The notes beneath the pieces were generated by a model, which was not told where the DNA came from, did no database searches, and was given only the letters and a program-made list of their open reading frames with translations. A DNA stretch of 64,000 bases from Candidatus Planktophila dulcis (GTDB lineage Bacteria; Actinomycetota; Actinomycetes; Nanopelagicales; Nanopelagicaceae), in assembly GCF_002288225.1 (NCBI RefSeq), contig NZ_CP016777.1, positions 620,001-684,000 of the forward strand. The letters run 5' to 3'. A program made the position numbers and the translations under genes. Below, piece by piece: positions 1,577 to 37,078 of the stretch (the first letter of the stretch is position 1; every line of letters starts with the position of its first letter).

Positions 1577-6473
<4,897 letters not shown>

Positions 6474-6595
6474 CAAAGTTGCTACGCGTCCACTGTGTGG
6501 TTCTCGAGATACGGTCGAGAACCACGAATAAGTAGATCAAATTAATTTTTGATCAGACTTACTTTTCGTAGGTTCATGCCAAAAACTCAATAGCG
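6474..6595 (+). other. 23S-5S spacer with 3' arm of the 23S processing stem
   Basis: GCTACGCGTCCACTGTGTGG plus TTCTC at 6481-6505 is the reverse complement of 3351-3374 with about two mismatches, forming a long stem that closes pre-23S for RNase III. A second hairpin, GGTTCTCGAG...CTCGAGAACC, overlaps it at 6499-6523. No gene was seen. Confidence 0.8.
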
Positions 6596-6713
6596 TTTCG
6601 GCGACCATAGCGAGAGGGAAACACCCGGTCCCATTCCGAACCCGGAAGTTAAGCCTCTCAGCGTCGATGGTACTGCACGGGTGACCTTGTGGGAGAGTAG
6701 AACGTCGCCGGAC
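6596..6713 (+). rRNA. rrf: 5S ribosomal RNA
   Basis: About 118 nt. TTCGGCGACCATAGCG at the 5' end pairs with CGTCGCCGGAC at the 3' end, and the internal CCCATTCCGAACCCGGAAGT and GGGAGAGTAG segments are typical of 5S. It is the last gene of the operon. Confidence 0.96.
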
Positions 6714-6721
6714 TTCTTTTA

Positions 6722-6757
6722 TAAAAAGGGGCGCTTATTTATAGGCGCCCCTTTTTT
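6722..6757 (+). terminator. Rho-independent terminator of the rRNA operon
   Basis: AAAAAGGGGCGC and GGCGCCCCTTTTTT form a strong stem with a short A/T loop ending in a T-run, 9 nt after 5S. Confidence 0.93.
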
Positions 6758-6832
6758 ATTTCTCAACCAATTCTTTTCGGTTCTTTGAGAAAAATAGAAG
6801 TTAAACTTAACAAGTAAATATTGGAGATAGCA

Positions 6833-7783
6833 ATGGAAGAGCGTCCACGTAATAGTGATCGACCAGCGCGCCCATCGAGCGGCCGTCCTTCATCGCGTCC
6901 GTCTTCATCTTCATCAGGGCGTCCGTCATCGGGCAGGCCCTCATCACGTCCAAGCTCTGAGCGTCCATCATCTGCTCGTCCACAATCTCGTGAAGAACGT
7001 CCTGCTCGCGGAGGTCGCTCAGACCGTGCCGGTGCAACCCGTCAAGTCTCCCAAGGTCGTGAAGTCAGTGATCCACGCGGGTTTCGCCCCGCCCCACAAG
7101 AGCGCGATCAATCACGTATACGTCCACGTATCTTTGAGCCAGATATTCCTGAAGATGTCACAGGTGAAGAGCTGGAAAAGAGTGTTCGCGCAGAGCTATT
7201 AAGTTTGTCTGCTGAAAATGCAAAGGTAGTTGCGCGCCATATGGTCTGCGTCAATCTCTATATGGATGTTGATCCTGAGCTCTCTCATAAGCATGCAGTT
7301 GCAGCAGCTCACCATGCAGGTCGTCTTGCAGTAGTACGAGAAACAGCAGGCTATGCCGCTTATCGCGCAGGCCATTATGAAATCGCACTGAAAGAACTGC
7401 GCGCATCAAATCGAATTTCGGGTGATGTGTCGATGTGGCCGGTGATGGCAGATTGCGAACGCGGTCTCGGTAACCCCCTAAAAGCCCTGAATTTGGCTGG
7501 TTCTGATGAGGTCAAGCGACTTGCAAAGCCTGAAGAGATTGAGATGCGCATCGTTGCATCGGGTGCTCGTCGCGACCTCGGTGAATTCGATGCAGCAGTT
7601 GTGACGTTGCAATGCAGAGAACTCAAGAATGAGAATGAAGAGTGGGCTCTTCGTCTTCGCTATGCCTATGCAGATGCCCTCGATGCTGCAGGGCGCAAGG
7701 ATGAGGCGCGCGAGTGGTTTGGTAAGTGCGCAGACCTTGATCCCGATGAACTCACTGATGCTCTTGAGCGCTCACAGAGCTAA
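6833..7783 (+). CDS. TPR-like protein with a low-complexity Arg/Ser/Pro N-terminus
   Basis: 316 residues. ATG 6833 was chosen because GGAG at 6822-6825 is well spaced; a TTG at 6821 overlaps that site. Residues 1 to about 95 are disordered, with repeated R-P-S-S units, then RGGRSDRAG and RIRPRIFEP. Residues from about 105 to the end are helical, with TPR-like pairs (AAHHAGRLAVVRETAGYAAY, HYEIALKELRAS, EFDAAVVTL, DALDAAGRKDEAREWF) and no enzyme motifs. Its place between tyrS and tlyA matches the conserved TPR protein Rv1691 of M. tuberculosis. Function is unknown; a scaffold or RNA/ribosome-associated role is only a guess from the Arg-rich tail and neighbours. Confidence 0.85.
   Translation: MEERPRNSDRPARPSSGRPSSRPSSSSSGRPSSGRPSSRPSSERPSSARPQSREERPARGGRSDRAGATRQVSQGREVSDPRGFRPAPQERDQSRIRPRIFEPDIPEDVTGEELEKSVRAELLSLSAENAKVVARHMVCVNLYMDVDPELSHKHAVAAAHHAGRLAVVRETAGYAAYRAGHYEIALKELRASNRISGDVSMWPVMADCERGLGNPLKALNLAGSDEVKRLAKPEEIEMRIVASGARRDLGEFDAAVVTLQCRELKNENEEWALRLRYAYADALDAAGRKDEAREWFGKCADLDPDELTDALERSQS
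6868..6985 (+). repeat. Low-complexity tandem repeat coding for RPSS units
   Basis: Imperfect direct repeats of CGTCC(T/A)TCATC/G type encode R-P-S-S or G-R-P-S-S about eight times within the TPR protein gene. Such arrays can change length by slippage. Confidence 0.7.
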
Positions 7784-33311: not shown

Positions 33312-34127
33312 CTATTCGGTAATTGGGCCTGGTGCAGCAATCTTGGTACTACCAGTTTCTGTGCTTTCAATTTTTCTATCGCGCTTTCTATCTACGAGCA
33401 GAGCGATTCCGCCTGCCATAAAGTAGAAGAGGATTAATGGCGCAGACAGAAGAGCCATACTCAATGGATCCCCAGTTGGTGATAGAGCTGCGACTGCAAA
33501 AAAGATGGAGAATACCCACGCACGCCATGGCTTGAGGATGGTGCGCCCTCTCAGGAATCCAATCAAATTAAAGGTGAGAAGAAATATAGGAAGTTCAAAG
33601 GCGAGTCCTACGAACAGAATTATTCGAAGAACGAAATCTAGGTAATCATCGATGCGCACCAAGTTGCTCACCGCATTTGGAGTGAAGCCAAAGAGAGCAT
33701 CTATAGCAATGGGAAGAATCAGGTAACCGAGGGTTGCTCCCATAACAAAGAACGGAGTCGCAGCTGCAACGAAGAGAATGCTGTTGCGTTTCTCCTTTCT
33801 ATGAAGTGCAGGAGCGATGAAGGCCCAAAGTTGGTAGAGCCAAAATGGTGCCGAGACAATGACTGCAGTCATCAGAGCAACCTTGATTTGTAGATCTAGT
33901 GGACCCAAAACACCGCTGATATAGAGAGCGCCACAACTGGCAGCTCCTGAAGCTTGAGCTGCACGAAGGTCACATACTGGTTTGGCTAGAGTGACGAGGA
34001 TCGAATTGTAAAAAAACCAACCTCCACAACCAGCCACGACAATTGCAATCGCTGAACTCAGAACTCGTTTCCGAAGTTCCCGCAGGTGGTCGATGAGCGG
34101 CATCTGCCCTTGTGGTGTAGATGCCAT
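33312..34127 (-). CDS. tatC: Sec-independent translocase subunit TatC
   Basis: 271 residues, six membrane segments. N-terminal MPLIDHLRELRKRVLSSAI motif holds the conserved Glu that recognises twin-arginine signals; later LWAFIAPALHRKEKRN and FELPIFLLTFNLIG are family stretches. ATG 34127 follows the tatA stop by 4 nt; an in-frame start at 34160 would lie inside tatA and adds a non-homologous lysine-rich piece. TatB is not nearby. Confidence 0.94.
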   Translation of the reverse strand: MASTPQGQMPLIDHLRELRKRVLSSAIAIVVAGCGGWFFYNSILVTLAKPVCDLRAAQASGAASCGALYISGVLGPLDLQIKVALMTAVIVSAPFWLYQLWAFIAPALHRKEKRNSILFVAAATPFFVMGATLGYLILPIAIDALFGFTPNAVSNLVRIDDYLDFVLRIILFVGLAFELPIFLLTFNLIGFLRGRTILKPWRAWVFSIFFAVAALSPTGDPLSMALLSAPLILFYFMAGGIALLVDRKRDRKIESTETGSTKIAAPGPITE

Positions 34128-34131
34128 CAGA

Positions 34132-34314
34132 TTACTTCTCTTTTTTGCCGTCTTCTTCAATAACAGAATCGTCAGCCTTCATCTCTTTCATCTCACTCTT
34201 GAAGATTCGCATTGAACGACCGAGAGAACGAGCAGAATCAGGAAGACGCTTTGCGCCGAAAAGGACCAGAACAACAATAAGCAGAATGACGATTTCTCTT
34301 GGACCTAGATTCAT
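34132..34314 (-). CDS. tatA: Sec-independent translocase subunit TatA
   Basis: 60 residues. Short N-terminal transmembrane helix EIVILLIVVLVLF, the FGAKRLP hinge with conserved Phe-Gly, an amphipathic helix SARSLGRSMRIFKSEMKEM and a charged tail. AAGGAG precedes the ATG. Located between pafC and tatC, the standard actinobacterial order. Confidence 0.94.
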   Translation of the reverse strand: MNLGPREIVILLIVVLVLFGAKRLPDSARSLGRSMRIFKSEMKEMKADDSVIEEDGKKEK

Positions 34315-34385
34315 ACTGTGAACTCCTTAACGTAAGATTTGACCTTAGATTACACCAGGTATCTTTGATTGGGTAGGCGAGGTAA

Positions 34386-35312
34386 TTACCCCTCATAACG
34401 ATTGAGTATCAATTCGGCTCTTTTGGCGAGTTCACTACGAATCTCCTCTGGAGACAGTAATTCGACAGCCCCTCCAGATGCCAAGACAGATCGTGCAATC
34501 CAATGCTGTGAAAATGACGAACCTTTGAAAACAGTTCCAGCTTCCAGGTTGGATTCCTCAAAGCGTTCAGCAACATCCCTAGTAGGCCTCACCACCTTTA
34601 CCGAAAAACCAATTTTCTCTGGATTTACCGGCAATGCTGTCGAAGGCTTTTCTACCTCCACTGAATGTGCTGATTGAATTCTATCTATCCGAAAATGTCT
34701 GAAATCAAGCGCTGTGAAGCAGTACGCGTGCAGATACAAATATCCCTGACTATCAAGAATCTCAAGTGGGAGTATAACTCGTGAGGAGATTACATCCTTA
34801 TAGAGTGAGTGATACGAGATCTGCAGACCACTTCGATGAGCTATCGCATCCTTCACTGAAGTTGTTACTTCTTGGCTGATGTTGCTGGATGCGGATAGCG
34901 CTAACGGAAGATTAACTAGGCGAGCGATACGTTGTGAAAGTGAAGCAATTGCTTCAATTAGATCAAGTCTTTCGCTCGAGATTCCAGATCGCAGGACATC
35001 CAAACCGAGAACGAGCGCTACGCCCTCTTCGTGTGTGATGGATCGAGGCCTTGCAAGGGTAGGCGCATTTCTTATCGTGACATAGCCAGATTCAAAATCT
35101 AAATCCATGAGTTCTAGGGGTGTGTAGCCAGGGAGACCGCACATCCATAGTGTTGTTAAATCGCTGATCATTTGGTCGGTGGAAACCTCGAATACTTCAG
35201 CCAATTCAACGAGAGAGATACCCTGATGCGTATTGATATACGGAACGAGATCTAGCAATCGAGAAGTGCGCTCTAAAGGGCTCACAGCATTCTTTGACTC
35301 GTTCTTAGCCAT
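34386..35312 (-). CDS. pafC: WYL-domain regulator PafC
   Basis: 308 residues. N-terminal winged helix (TSRLLDLVPYINTHQGISLV, ELAEVFEVSTDQM), then a WYL-type domain (GLQISYHSLYKDVISSRVIL, PLEILDSQGYLYLHAYC, RHFRIDRI) and a WCX-like C-terminal domain. With PafB it forms the RecA-independent DNA-damage activator of Actinobacteria. Overlaps pafB by 8 nt. Confidence 0.9.
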   Translation of the reverse strand: MAKNESKNAVSPLERTSRLLDLVPYINTHQGISLVELAEVFEVSTDQMISDLTTLWMCGLPGYTPLELMDLDFESGYVTIRNAPTLARPRSITHEEGVALVLGLDVLRSGISSERLDLIEAIASLSQRIARLVNLPLALSASSNISQEVTTSVKDAIAHRSGLQISYHSLYKDVISSRVILPLEILDSQGYLYLHAYCFTALDFRHFRIDRIQSAHSVEVEKPSTALPVNPEKIGFSVKVVRPTRDVAERFEESNLEAGTVFKGSSFSQHWIARSVLASGGAVELLSPEEIRSELAKRAELILNRYEG

Positions 35313-36246
35313 GTGCCTTCACTATCTCTTTGAGGCTTGAAACGATGCTCTCCCGAAGCTCCACTGGTGAATGAACATAGACATCGTCTCCGTGCCAGAG
35401 GATCAAGGCAGAGAGACTCTTCACATCTAGGATTGGAATCTGCAACTGATCCCACTCACCGATCGACTTCGTCGATGATGCGAGAGCGCGCAGTGAGGTG
35501 CCTTTTCCGCGACGAACATCAACTACTGCGTAAAAACTCTCCACTCTTTCGAATAGATTTTGAGAATCAAAGTTTTCAGGAGTTTCGAAATTCTTAGGTC
35601 CTTTCTTCACAGTGAAGCTTCCGATTACCCGATCAAAACGGAAGGTACGAACCTCCTCGATGCTCTGATCTACTCCGGTCAAATACCAGTAGCCTGAGCG
35701 AGTTGATAGTCCTATCGGGACCACGCGTCTATTTTCCTCCGACAAGTCATAGTTTCGGTAGATGAATTCAAGAATCTGGTGCTCTGCAATAGCGTGCGTG
35801 ATCTTTGGAAGATCTAAACCGCCATCGGAGAGGAAGGGTATAGAGACCGGCAAGTTTGTTTCATCCACTGCAATTCCAAGTGAATTCAACTTAACTAGAG
35901 CGCGCTGCGCTGCATCATCTAGTGAAGCTCCTTGCCATGCCTGAGCAGCTAAGGAGAGAAGAGAAATTTCAAGGGTAGTTATATCGCCAAGATCTAGTTG
36001 GTATCTCTCCTGCTTAATGCGATAACCGGCCTCATCATTAAAGAGAGGGTCGAAGGAACCAACTTCAATCTCTATGCCAAGAGTGCGTAAATCATCTTTA
36101 TCTCGTTCGAACATTCTCTCTTTAGATTCAGAACTTCCTTCGTACCCTTCAATAGTCTTGAAGATTTCAGATTTAGTGATAAATCTCTTCGTTGCCAAGA
36201 GCGCAATCGTGAGATTAATGAGTCTCTCACTCTTCCGGGACACCAT
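35305..36246 (-). CDS. pafB: WYL-domain regulator PafB
   Basis: 313 residues. Winged-helix N-terminus (RKSERLINLTIALLATKRFI, TKSEIF), WYL domain (EFIYRNYDLSEENRRVVPIG, LSTRSGYWYLTGVD, RTFRFDRV) and a C-terminal WCX-like domain. Partner of PafC. ATG 36246 with AAAGG upstream was preferred; GTG 36252 or 36243 are possible. It starts 20 nt inside the end of trmI. In other Actinobacteria pafA, prcAB, pup, dop and mpa lie between these two genes; here they are missing. Confidence 0.9.
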   Translation of the reverse strand: MVSRKSERLINLTIALLATKRFITKSEIFKTIEGYEGSSESKERMFERDKDDLRTLGIEIEVGSFDPLFNDEAGYRIKQERYQLDLGDITTLEISLLSLAAQAWQGASLDDAAQRALVKLNSLGIAVDETNLPVSIPFLSDGGLDLPKITHAIAEHQILEFIYRNYDLSEENRRVVPIGLSTRSGYWYLTGVDQSIEEVRTFRFDRVIGSFTVKKGPKNFETPENFDSQNLFERVESFYAVVDVRRGKGTSLRALASSTKSIGEWDQLQIPILDVKSLSALILWHGDDVYVHSPVELRESIVSSLKEIVKAHG

Positions 36247-37078
36247 ATGCACCTTTAGCTGGTCTACGTCTTCGGGCTAGGACCTCTACTCCAGGTGCCA
36301 TGCGCCTACTTTGGATAAGAAATCCTGTGTGCCCAATCATCCGTTGCTGAGGACGCACAGCAAGACCTTCATGATGCCAACCGCGAACGATTGTCTCTGA
36401 ACTCTCTGGCTCTGTGAAATGACCATCCTCTTTTAACGCTTCAGCTGTTGCAGAAAGTTGTGTCGTGGTTGCAACATAGGCCAGGAATACTCCACCTGGA
36501 CGAAGAACTTTCGCTGCCATTTCTACACATTCCCATGGCGCCAACATGTCGAGGATGACGCGATCGAAGGTGGTCGTGAACTCTTGTTCCTGCACAGAAC
36601 CTACATTCAGGCTCCAGTTTGTAGGCATAGCTCCAAAGTAACTTGTGATGTTGGCTGTTGCATTATCAGCAAAGTCTTGACGTCGCTCAACGGAATGAAC
36701 TGAACCTTCTGAACCCACTGCGCGAAGGAGAGAGAGTGTGAGTGCGCCACTTCCAACACCTGCTTCAAGTACTCGCGCACCCGGATAGATATCGGCAACG
36801 CCGACAATCATCGCCGCATCTTTTGGATAGACAATGGTTGCACCACGCGGCATAGACAAGACGAAATCTGCAAGAAGTGGAATAAATGCCGTGAATTTCA
36901 AACCTGCAGTAGTGCTCACAACCGAACCTTCAGGAAGACCAATCAAATCATCATGAGTGATCCAGCCCTTATGGGTATGCCACTCTTTTCCAGGAGTTAT
37001 CGTGAAGCTATAGAGCTTTCCTTTGGGATCGGTGAGTTGAATACGATCGCCGGCTTTGAAATACCCTGGATTAGACAC
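36227..37078 (-). CDS. trmI: tRNA (adenine-58-N1)-methyltransferase TrmI
   Basis: 283 residues. N-terminal beta domain (FKAGDRIQLTDPKGKLYSFT) and a SAM-dependent Rossmann domain: VLEAGVGSGALTLSLLRAVG, EGSVHSVERRQDFA, FDRVILDMLAPWECV, GGVFLAYVATTTQL. Makes m1A58 in the T-loop of tRNAs. First gene of the long minus-strand run, divergent from the recB-like gene with a 58-bp gap. Confidence 0.93.
   Translation of the reverse strand: MSNPGYFKAGDRIQLTDPKGKLYSFTITPGKEWHTHKGWITHDDLIGLPEGSVVSTTAGLKFTAFIPLLADFVLSMPRGATIVYPKDAAMIVGVADIYPGARVLEAGVGSGALTLSLLRAVGSEGSVHSVERRQDFADNATANITSYFGAMPTNWSLNVGSVQEQEFTTTFDRVILDMLAPWECVEMAAKVLRPGGVFLAYVATTTQLSATAEALKEDGHFTEPESSETIVRGWHHEGLAVRPQQRMIGHTGFLIQSRRMAPGVEVLARRRRPAKGAYGVPEE

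Follow-up and report, generated by a model that had tools for sequence, protein, structure and literature searches.

Almost all Nanopelagicales, a freshwater group, have very probably lost the Pup-proteasome system (PPS) by one ancestral deletion of the whole gene block and some of them, later, an FKBP gene in a second deletion, while PafBC appears to have been kept as a stand-alone activator of RecA-NDp promoters that would sense single-stranded DNA (ssDNA). We reached this view from gene presence and absence, synteny, a tree, conserved residues, selection and promoter motifs, starting from a stretch of 64,000 nucleotides of Candidatus Planktophila dulcis (hereafter the window). The junction described here is a natural deletion of the PPS block with PafBC left in place. 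Comparison can now address the reason for PafBC being placed in the PPS locus, and the need for pupylation to end the DNA-damage response. The loss of dispensable genes is expected in small genomes; less expected are how complete this loss is across the order, that PafBC and its promoters have survived, and how the LexA/PafBC composites are spaced.

The trmI-pafBC-tatAC locus

The genes of the locus lie on the minus strand of the window in the order trmI, pafB, pafC, tatA, tatC. Its 5' border is trmI (36227..37078), which encodes a TrmI-type tRNA methyltransferase (PF14801 TrmI-like_N and PF08704 GCD14). Next come pafB (35305..36246 from the ATG), encoding a WYL-type transcription activator subunit (PF13280; PDB 7p5x and 9fnd, E ~1e-35), and pafC (34386..35312), encoding the partner subunit with the domain order HTH_PafC, WYL, WCX (PF19187, E 1.5e-31; PafC of 7p5x, E 6.4e-28). 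The Tat translocase subunit genes follow: tatA (34138..34302), given by its tblastn extent only and identical in position across 14 compared loci, is the 3' neighbour, and tatC (33312..34160), assigned by synteny and tblastn, ends the putative pafB-pafC-tatA-tatC recombination tract. A previous reading, made from the sequence alone, had described a trmI/pafB overlap of about 20 nt and an overlap of pafB with pafC. Both were confirmed: the former (36227..36246, minus strand) measures 20 nt if pafB starts at its ATG and 26 nt if the in-frame GTG at 36252 is taken as the start, and the latter 8 nt. The trmI/pafB overlap is the site at which two relatives of genus g8 hold the PPS block and two FKBP genes. 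Since pafB lies directly behind trmI and their ends overlap, pafBC is probably transcribed from the trmI operon.

PafB and PafC match the M. smegmatis-type PafB/PafC and the Arthrobacter PafBC in PDB, and their tandem arrangement together with the domains of PafC identifies them as PafBC. In PafB, the WYL domain is over cut-off and the WCX domain just below it (21.8 vs 23.9 bits); the HTH is visible through alignment to the solved mycobacterial and Arthrobacter PafB. The pair is not found downstream of pafA, which is absent, and sits between trmI and tatA/tatC as in g8. We regard a position downstream of pafA as an association that does not have the status of a functional criterion. The TrmI of the window is at most 92% identical to that of Candidatus Planktophila records, and Ca. 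Nanopelagicaceae are also among its relatives. A number of related loci (L110, L113, L116, L121, L127, L159 and others) have titles naming Bifidobacterium breve or Streptomyces griseus, with TrmI 78-89% identical to that of the window; the records so titled that have a Planktophila-type junction are probably mislabelled environmental assemblies.

Conservation of PafB and PafC

The HTH of PafC was detected in 97 of 101 genomes of the order and in 12 of its 12 genera. We compared the residues of PafB in 96 and of PafC in 88 of 102 loci, the others being dropped for want of a match or because of a short ORF. An excerpt of PMC6789036 proposes HTH arginines for DNA contact, and one of PMC11804915 describes WYL residues whose mutation matters for ssDNA binding. 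Among the 87 PafB rows from PPS-less loci, the HTH arginines 44 and 48 are present in all, R181 and R214 in 86 each and Y196 in 85; R208 is R or K in 87/87 and R211 is R or K in 86/87. The PafB of the window retains R181, Y196, R208, R211 and R214, which we count as having kept the ssDNA residues, and carries I in place of R204, a position that is often K in other rows. At R211, V is found in both g8 rows. Of 79 PafC rows, 67 keep the arginine of R201 and 62 that of R204.

The dN/dS ratios (Nei-Gojobori) of pafB and pafC range from 0.05 to 0.20 in two comparisons, those with L110 being rough (dS >1.6), and both genes appear to be under purifying selection. Nevertheless, PafB and PafC have changed far more rapidly than the genes beside them: L107 and L110 aside, identity in the listed loci is 34-54% for pafC, as against 75-97% for trmI. 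Such divergence might be expected if PafBC were a vanishing remnant, or had been re-tasked and no longer served a DNA-damage response.

RecA-NDp motifs and SOS boxes

We take the RecA-NDp consensus to be TGTCRGTG, a spacer of 8 nt and TANNNT. Motifs of this type mark PafBC targets, according to the portion of PMC8223512 consulted. The recA gene of the window's own genome is preceded by TGTCAGTG-GCTCCTGC-TACCTT, which fits the consensus. The exact motif occurs at 5 sites in this genome, against 0 for the reversed pattern, and at 59 sites in 21 genomes of the window's genus, against 9; from base composition about 24.5 sites would be expected in the 21 genomes, so that the excess by this measure is only 2.4-fold. 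With one mismatch allowed, 35 sites stood against 40 for the control in the own genome, and because these show no excess, enrichment was judged on exact matches only. A pattern with a 7-nt spacer and two mismatches gave no exact match and counts (436 and 435) below the control (632 and 649), and was replaced by the 8-nt spacer.

The recA upstream region could be anchored in 27 genomes; three g3 genomes were missed by the anchor pattern and excluded from the motif count. By chance, the strict motif would be expected at about 0.013 loci among these 27. It is present in 12 of 16 genomes of genus g1; three more have TGTCAGCC and one has neither. None of the 11 anchored genomes of g2, g4, g5 and g6 carries it, loose matches being seen only in L097 and L104. 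These four genera keep PafC without the strict recA motif, and the link to recA is therefore established for genus g1 only. By eye, a GGCGTGTC-like string precedes the SOS box upstream of recA in g2, g4, g5 and g6, at the place of the PafBC motif of g1.

Downstream of the 59 exact sites, the assignments include a recA cluster of 14 (in L223 only a short ORF is visible), NlpC/P60 genes at 6 sites, with gene starts 226-296 nt away, and LysM genes at four clustered sites, plus L262 by sequence. The contig ends at the L244 site, which has a motif and an SOS box like those at recA. Single sites precede genes for a DnaE-type polymerase (start 349 nt away; a 383-aa fragment whose best NCBIfam models, DnaE and error-prone polymerase, are below cut-off), a RadA-like protein (named by eye, with consistent domains) and a C5 methylase-like protein (its domain was checked in the L197 homologue). 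Other downstream ORFs encode small membrane proteins, TPR and CarD proteins, and at 25 of the 59 sites there is either no ORF downstream or one that clusters with no other. Of the three genomes checked for lexA next to the LysM gene, the own genome and G056 have the two genes directly facing each other, and G020 has its lexA match about 7 kb off. In the own genome, one-mismatch sites, a class not enriched overall, lie 6-7 nt before rmuC and before a UvrD-type helicase gene.

LexA was found in 93 of the 101 order genomes, the window's own included, and a GAACN4GTTC box in 27/27 anchored recA upstream regions. Where recA is preceded by TGTCAGTG or TGTCAGCC, in 15 g1 genomes, this SOS box begins 24 nt downstream of the first base of the PafBC element, which puts it 2 nt after TANNNT. 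Among the 59 exact sites, 22 have an SOS box within -80..+88 and 37 have none there. A +24 position is shared by 13 sites of the recA cluster, L244 and the site before the DnaE-type gene; five LysM-type sites have the box at +31, one recA site has it at +46 and one TPR site at -70. The fixed spacing suggests joint control by PafBC and LexA, either at a shared start or at a pair of adjacent ones. Spacings of exactly 24 or 31 nt can be viewed in L189 and other recA upstream regions, in L188 and in L233.

The absence of the strict recA motif from the 11 anchored genomes outside g1 adds to the case for PafBC as a remnant or re-tasked protein. However, this reading is unlikely given the low dN/dS, the nearly invariant ssDNA-contact and HTH residues over 87 rows, a PafC HTH in every genus, and composites of motif and SOS box at recA, the LysM gene and the DnaE-type gene. 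The sequence-only reading had proposed that PafB and PafC are retained, and the conserved residues, the dN/dS well below 1 and the RecA-NDp motifs at repair genes support this. Most likely, then, the damage response under PafBC operates in the absence of pupylation.

A stand-alone PafBC activator would work as follows; transcription, ssDNA sensing and shut-off are the steps that we infer. By analogy with Mycobacterium, the WYL domain of PafB would bind ssDNA after damage, the PafBC heterodimer would insert between sigma-A and the promoter, and genes behind a TGTCRGTG-N8-TANNNT promoter would be turned on. Candidate targets in the window's genus are recA, the LysM gene facing lexA (own genome) and the DnaE-type polymerase gene (one genome), with LexA boxes just downstream of the motif as a putative second lock. 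Shut-off, which in Mycobacterium depends partly on pupylation and degradation of RecA, would here have to depend on LexA re-repression and other proteases.

Origin of the junction

In the Nanopelagicales sample, Pup ligase, Pup, 20S subunits and Mpa are each over cut-off in 2 of 101 genomes, always G034 and G059; TIGR03689 was matched in all 101, in 99 of them only below cut-off. PPS is lacking in 99/101 genomes, and in 87 of the 89 with at least 90% completeness and at most 5% contamination. The loss of pupylation proposed by the sequence-only reading is thus borne out, but as a nearly order-wide trait and not as a peculiarity of this genome alone.

Both PPS-bearing genomes are drafts and belong to the single genus g8. 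In them, trmI is followed by mpa, dop, pup, prcB, prcA and pafA, then by two FKBP genes on the opposite strand and by pafB, pafC, tatA and tatC, so that the sister genomes hold the block from mpa to pafA exactly between trmI and pafB, where it had been described as missing from the window. Domains were confirmed for pup, the two 20S subunits, both Pup_ligase-fold proteins, one FKBP and mpa; gene order served to distinguish dop from pafA and prcA from prcB. Among 15 loci compared at the trmI/pafB junction, two have the block, eight an FKBP gene alone, one a cyclophilin-type gene and four, the window included, the overlap. The cyclophilin-type isomerase gene (PF00160) is that of genus g5 (L042 2428-3177) and stands in place of the FKBP gene of other genera. 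Among 80 named trmI loci, the trmI and pafB matches overlap in 58, and an FKBP gene is at the junction in 20, which come from other genera than the window's; one of the remaining two has a 249-nt gap with no FKBP match and the other ends before pafB. The 80 loci gave no PPS match, though several end soon after trmI.

A FastTree phylogeny of four concatenated proteins was built from 43 taxa. These comprise the 15 compared loci, a further 20 taken from the 80 named ones, and eight outgroups (one without trmI and two without tatC). The tree places g8 as sister to all PPS-less loci, with local support of 0.854 for the 35-taxon ingroup, 0.995 for the 33-taxon PPS-less clade and 1.0 for the 12-taxon overlap clade; branches within a genus are unreliable, because pafB and pafC are among the proteins used and appear to undergo recombination inside the genus. 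As g8 branches first, a single loss of the whole block fits best, and a single FKBP loss after it accounts for the tree and the junctions. The whole block mpa-dop-pup-prcB-prcA-pafA would have been deleted in the ancestor of almost all Nanopelagicales after g8 had split off. A second deletion, in the common ancestor of genus g2 and the genus of the window, would have removed the remaining FKBP gene and left pafB directly behind trmI. The earlier idea of a loss exactly at this junction stands, but no fewer than two deletions are required to explain the tight overlap, the FKBP gene being still present at 20 of the 80 named loci.

The occurrence of PPS in one genus and two draft genomes of 101 could also be explained if the ancestor of Nanopelagicales had no PPS and g8 acquired it by horizontal transfer, as the available part of PMC3511204 proposes for a pupylation system in Nitrospirae. 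We consider this very unlikely. In g8 the block has its canonical order between trmI and pafB, with the flanking FKBP, tatA and tatC genes, and a gain would demand insertion at the exact ancestral site. Moreover, an FKBP gene occupies the same spot in 8 of the 12 PPS-less sister loci that were set beside the window, and a Pup ligase match is present in 328 of 353 genomes of the class outside the window's family.

Search of the own genome

The window's genome is one contig of 1,348,019 bases and 99.93% complete. No match was obtained there for PF03136 (Pup ligase/Dop), PF00227 (20S subunits) or PF05639 (Pup), and the four matches to TIGR03689 (Mpa) are all below cut-off; of the two that were checked, the best is FtsH (845.7 bits vs a cut-off of 600) and the second scored best as FtsH-like, below the cut-off of 600. 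Taken over the components of a PPS locus (pup, pafA, dop, mpa, prcBA), none is over its model cut-off. In the window, tblastn with the block genes of the sister genus found no PPS match (threshold >38 bits), in keeping with the block being absent exactly between trmI and pafB. The whole-genome search for pafA, pup, dop, prcA, prcB and mpa suggested by the sequence-only reading thus returned none over cut-off, and no copy elsewhere speaks against the loss. PPS genes could in principle lie elsewhere, and many genomes of the order are drafts, but relocation or an assembly gap is already refuted for the own assembly by these searches of a one-contig genome and is extremely unlikely overall, with the same absence in 99/101 order genomes and 87/89 high-quality ones.

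Distribution in the class

In 394 genomes of the class, a Pup ligase match was found in 329, among them 1 of 41 in the window's family. Of the PPS families this sample covers Pup ligase, and absence outside the window's family means that a genome is missing from the match list. Outside that family, 25 genomes have no Pup ligase match: 20 are all the sampled members of family f36, and 3 of the other 5 are 60-81% complete. A PafC-type HTH match is present in 383/394 genomes, and in 23 of these 25. The PafC-type HTH is more widely kept than Pup ligase (383 vs 329 of 394).

Family f36 (G189, G200, G210 and 17 more) resembles the window's family, at the level of profile matches, in that all 20 genomes have no Pup ligase match and all 20 have PafC-type HTH matches; it differs in its larger genomes of 2.8-4.3 Mb.

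Comparison with known systems

The locus shares with the mycobacterial PafBC response (M. smegmatis, M. tuberculosis) the pafB/pafC tandem, the WYL ssDNA residues and the RecA-NDp promoter type, and recA is among the putative targets together with LexA control. In contrast to mycobacteria, pafA is not upstream of pafB and pafBC directly follows trmI, no pupylation or proteasome is there to remove RecA afterwards, and the SOS box at recA starts 2 nt after the motif. The Corynebacterium-type proteasome-less loci, as treated in parts of PMC3511204 and PMC8223512, are alike in being a secondary gene loss from the PPS locus in an Actinobacteria lineage. In these texts, however, Corynebacterium has lost the proteasome subunits and kept the pupylation genes and the ATPase, whereas here the complete block is gone. 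An extract of PMC6466877 states that about half of the sequenced species lost the core subunits yet kept pupylation, and one of PMC2588565 that Pup is present in all major lineages. The open-licence literature on Nanopelagicales and Planktophila yielded no account of PPS loss, nothing was found there on pupylation in Microbacteriaceae, and among the titles listed by broader searches none concerned this loss; an earlier mention may exist elsewhere.

Probable recombination of the pafBC-tatAC tract

Between the window and L105, recB and trmI are 83-86% and dgk 73% identical, but pafB to tatC only 40-72%. Between the window and L107 the pattern is reversed, with 74-77% for recB and trmI and 66% for dgk, but 85-96% nucleotide identity from pafB to tatC. 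Synonymous divergence to L107 is 0.26 for pafB, 0.36 for pafC and 0.72 for tatC, and 2.74 (near saturation) for trmI. From these identities of flanks and tract and from the synonymous divergence, pafB-pafC-tatA-tatC (33312-36246, minus strand) has most likely been exchanged as a unit. The left end of this recombination tract would be the trmI/pafB junction itself.

A bolder and rather doubtful idea joins two features of this locus. Planktophila PafBC, freed from the proteasome, might be a two-key switch, with LexA boxes at fixed distances of 24 or 31 nt from the start of a PafBC-type element, at recA, at a LysM gene next to lexA and, in one genome, at the DnaE-type gene; induction would need both ssDNA-loaded PafBC and LexA cleavage, and LexA re-repression would replace pupylation as shut-off. 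At the same time, pafBC with tatAC would be a rapidly diverging cassette swapped between lineages by recombination.

Downstream of pafC in L049 (G020), tatA-tatC is present twice in tandem (4428-5373 and 5926-6871), and the matches to both copies score the same.
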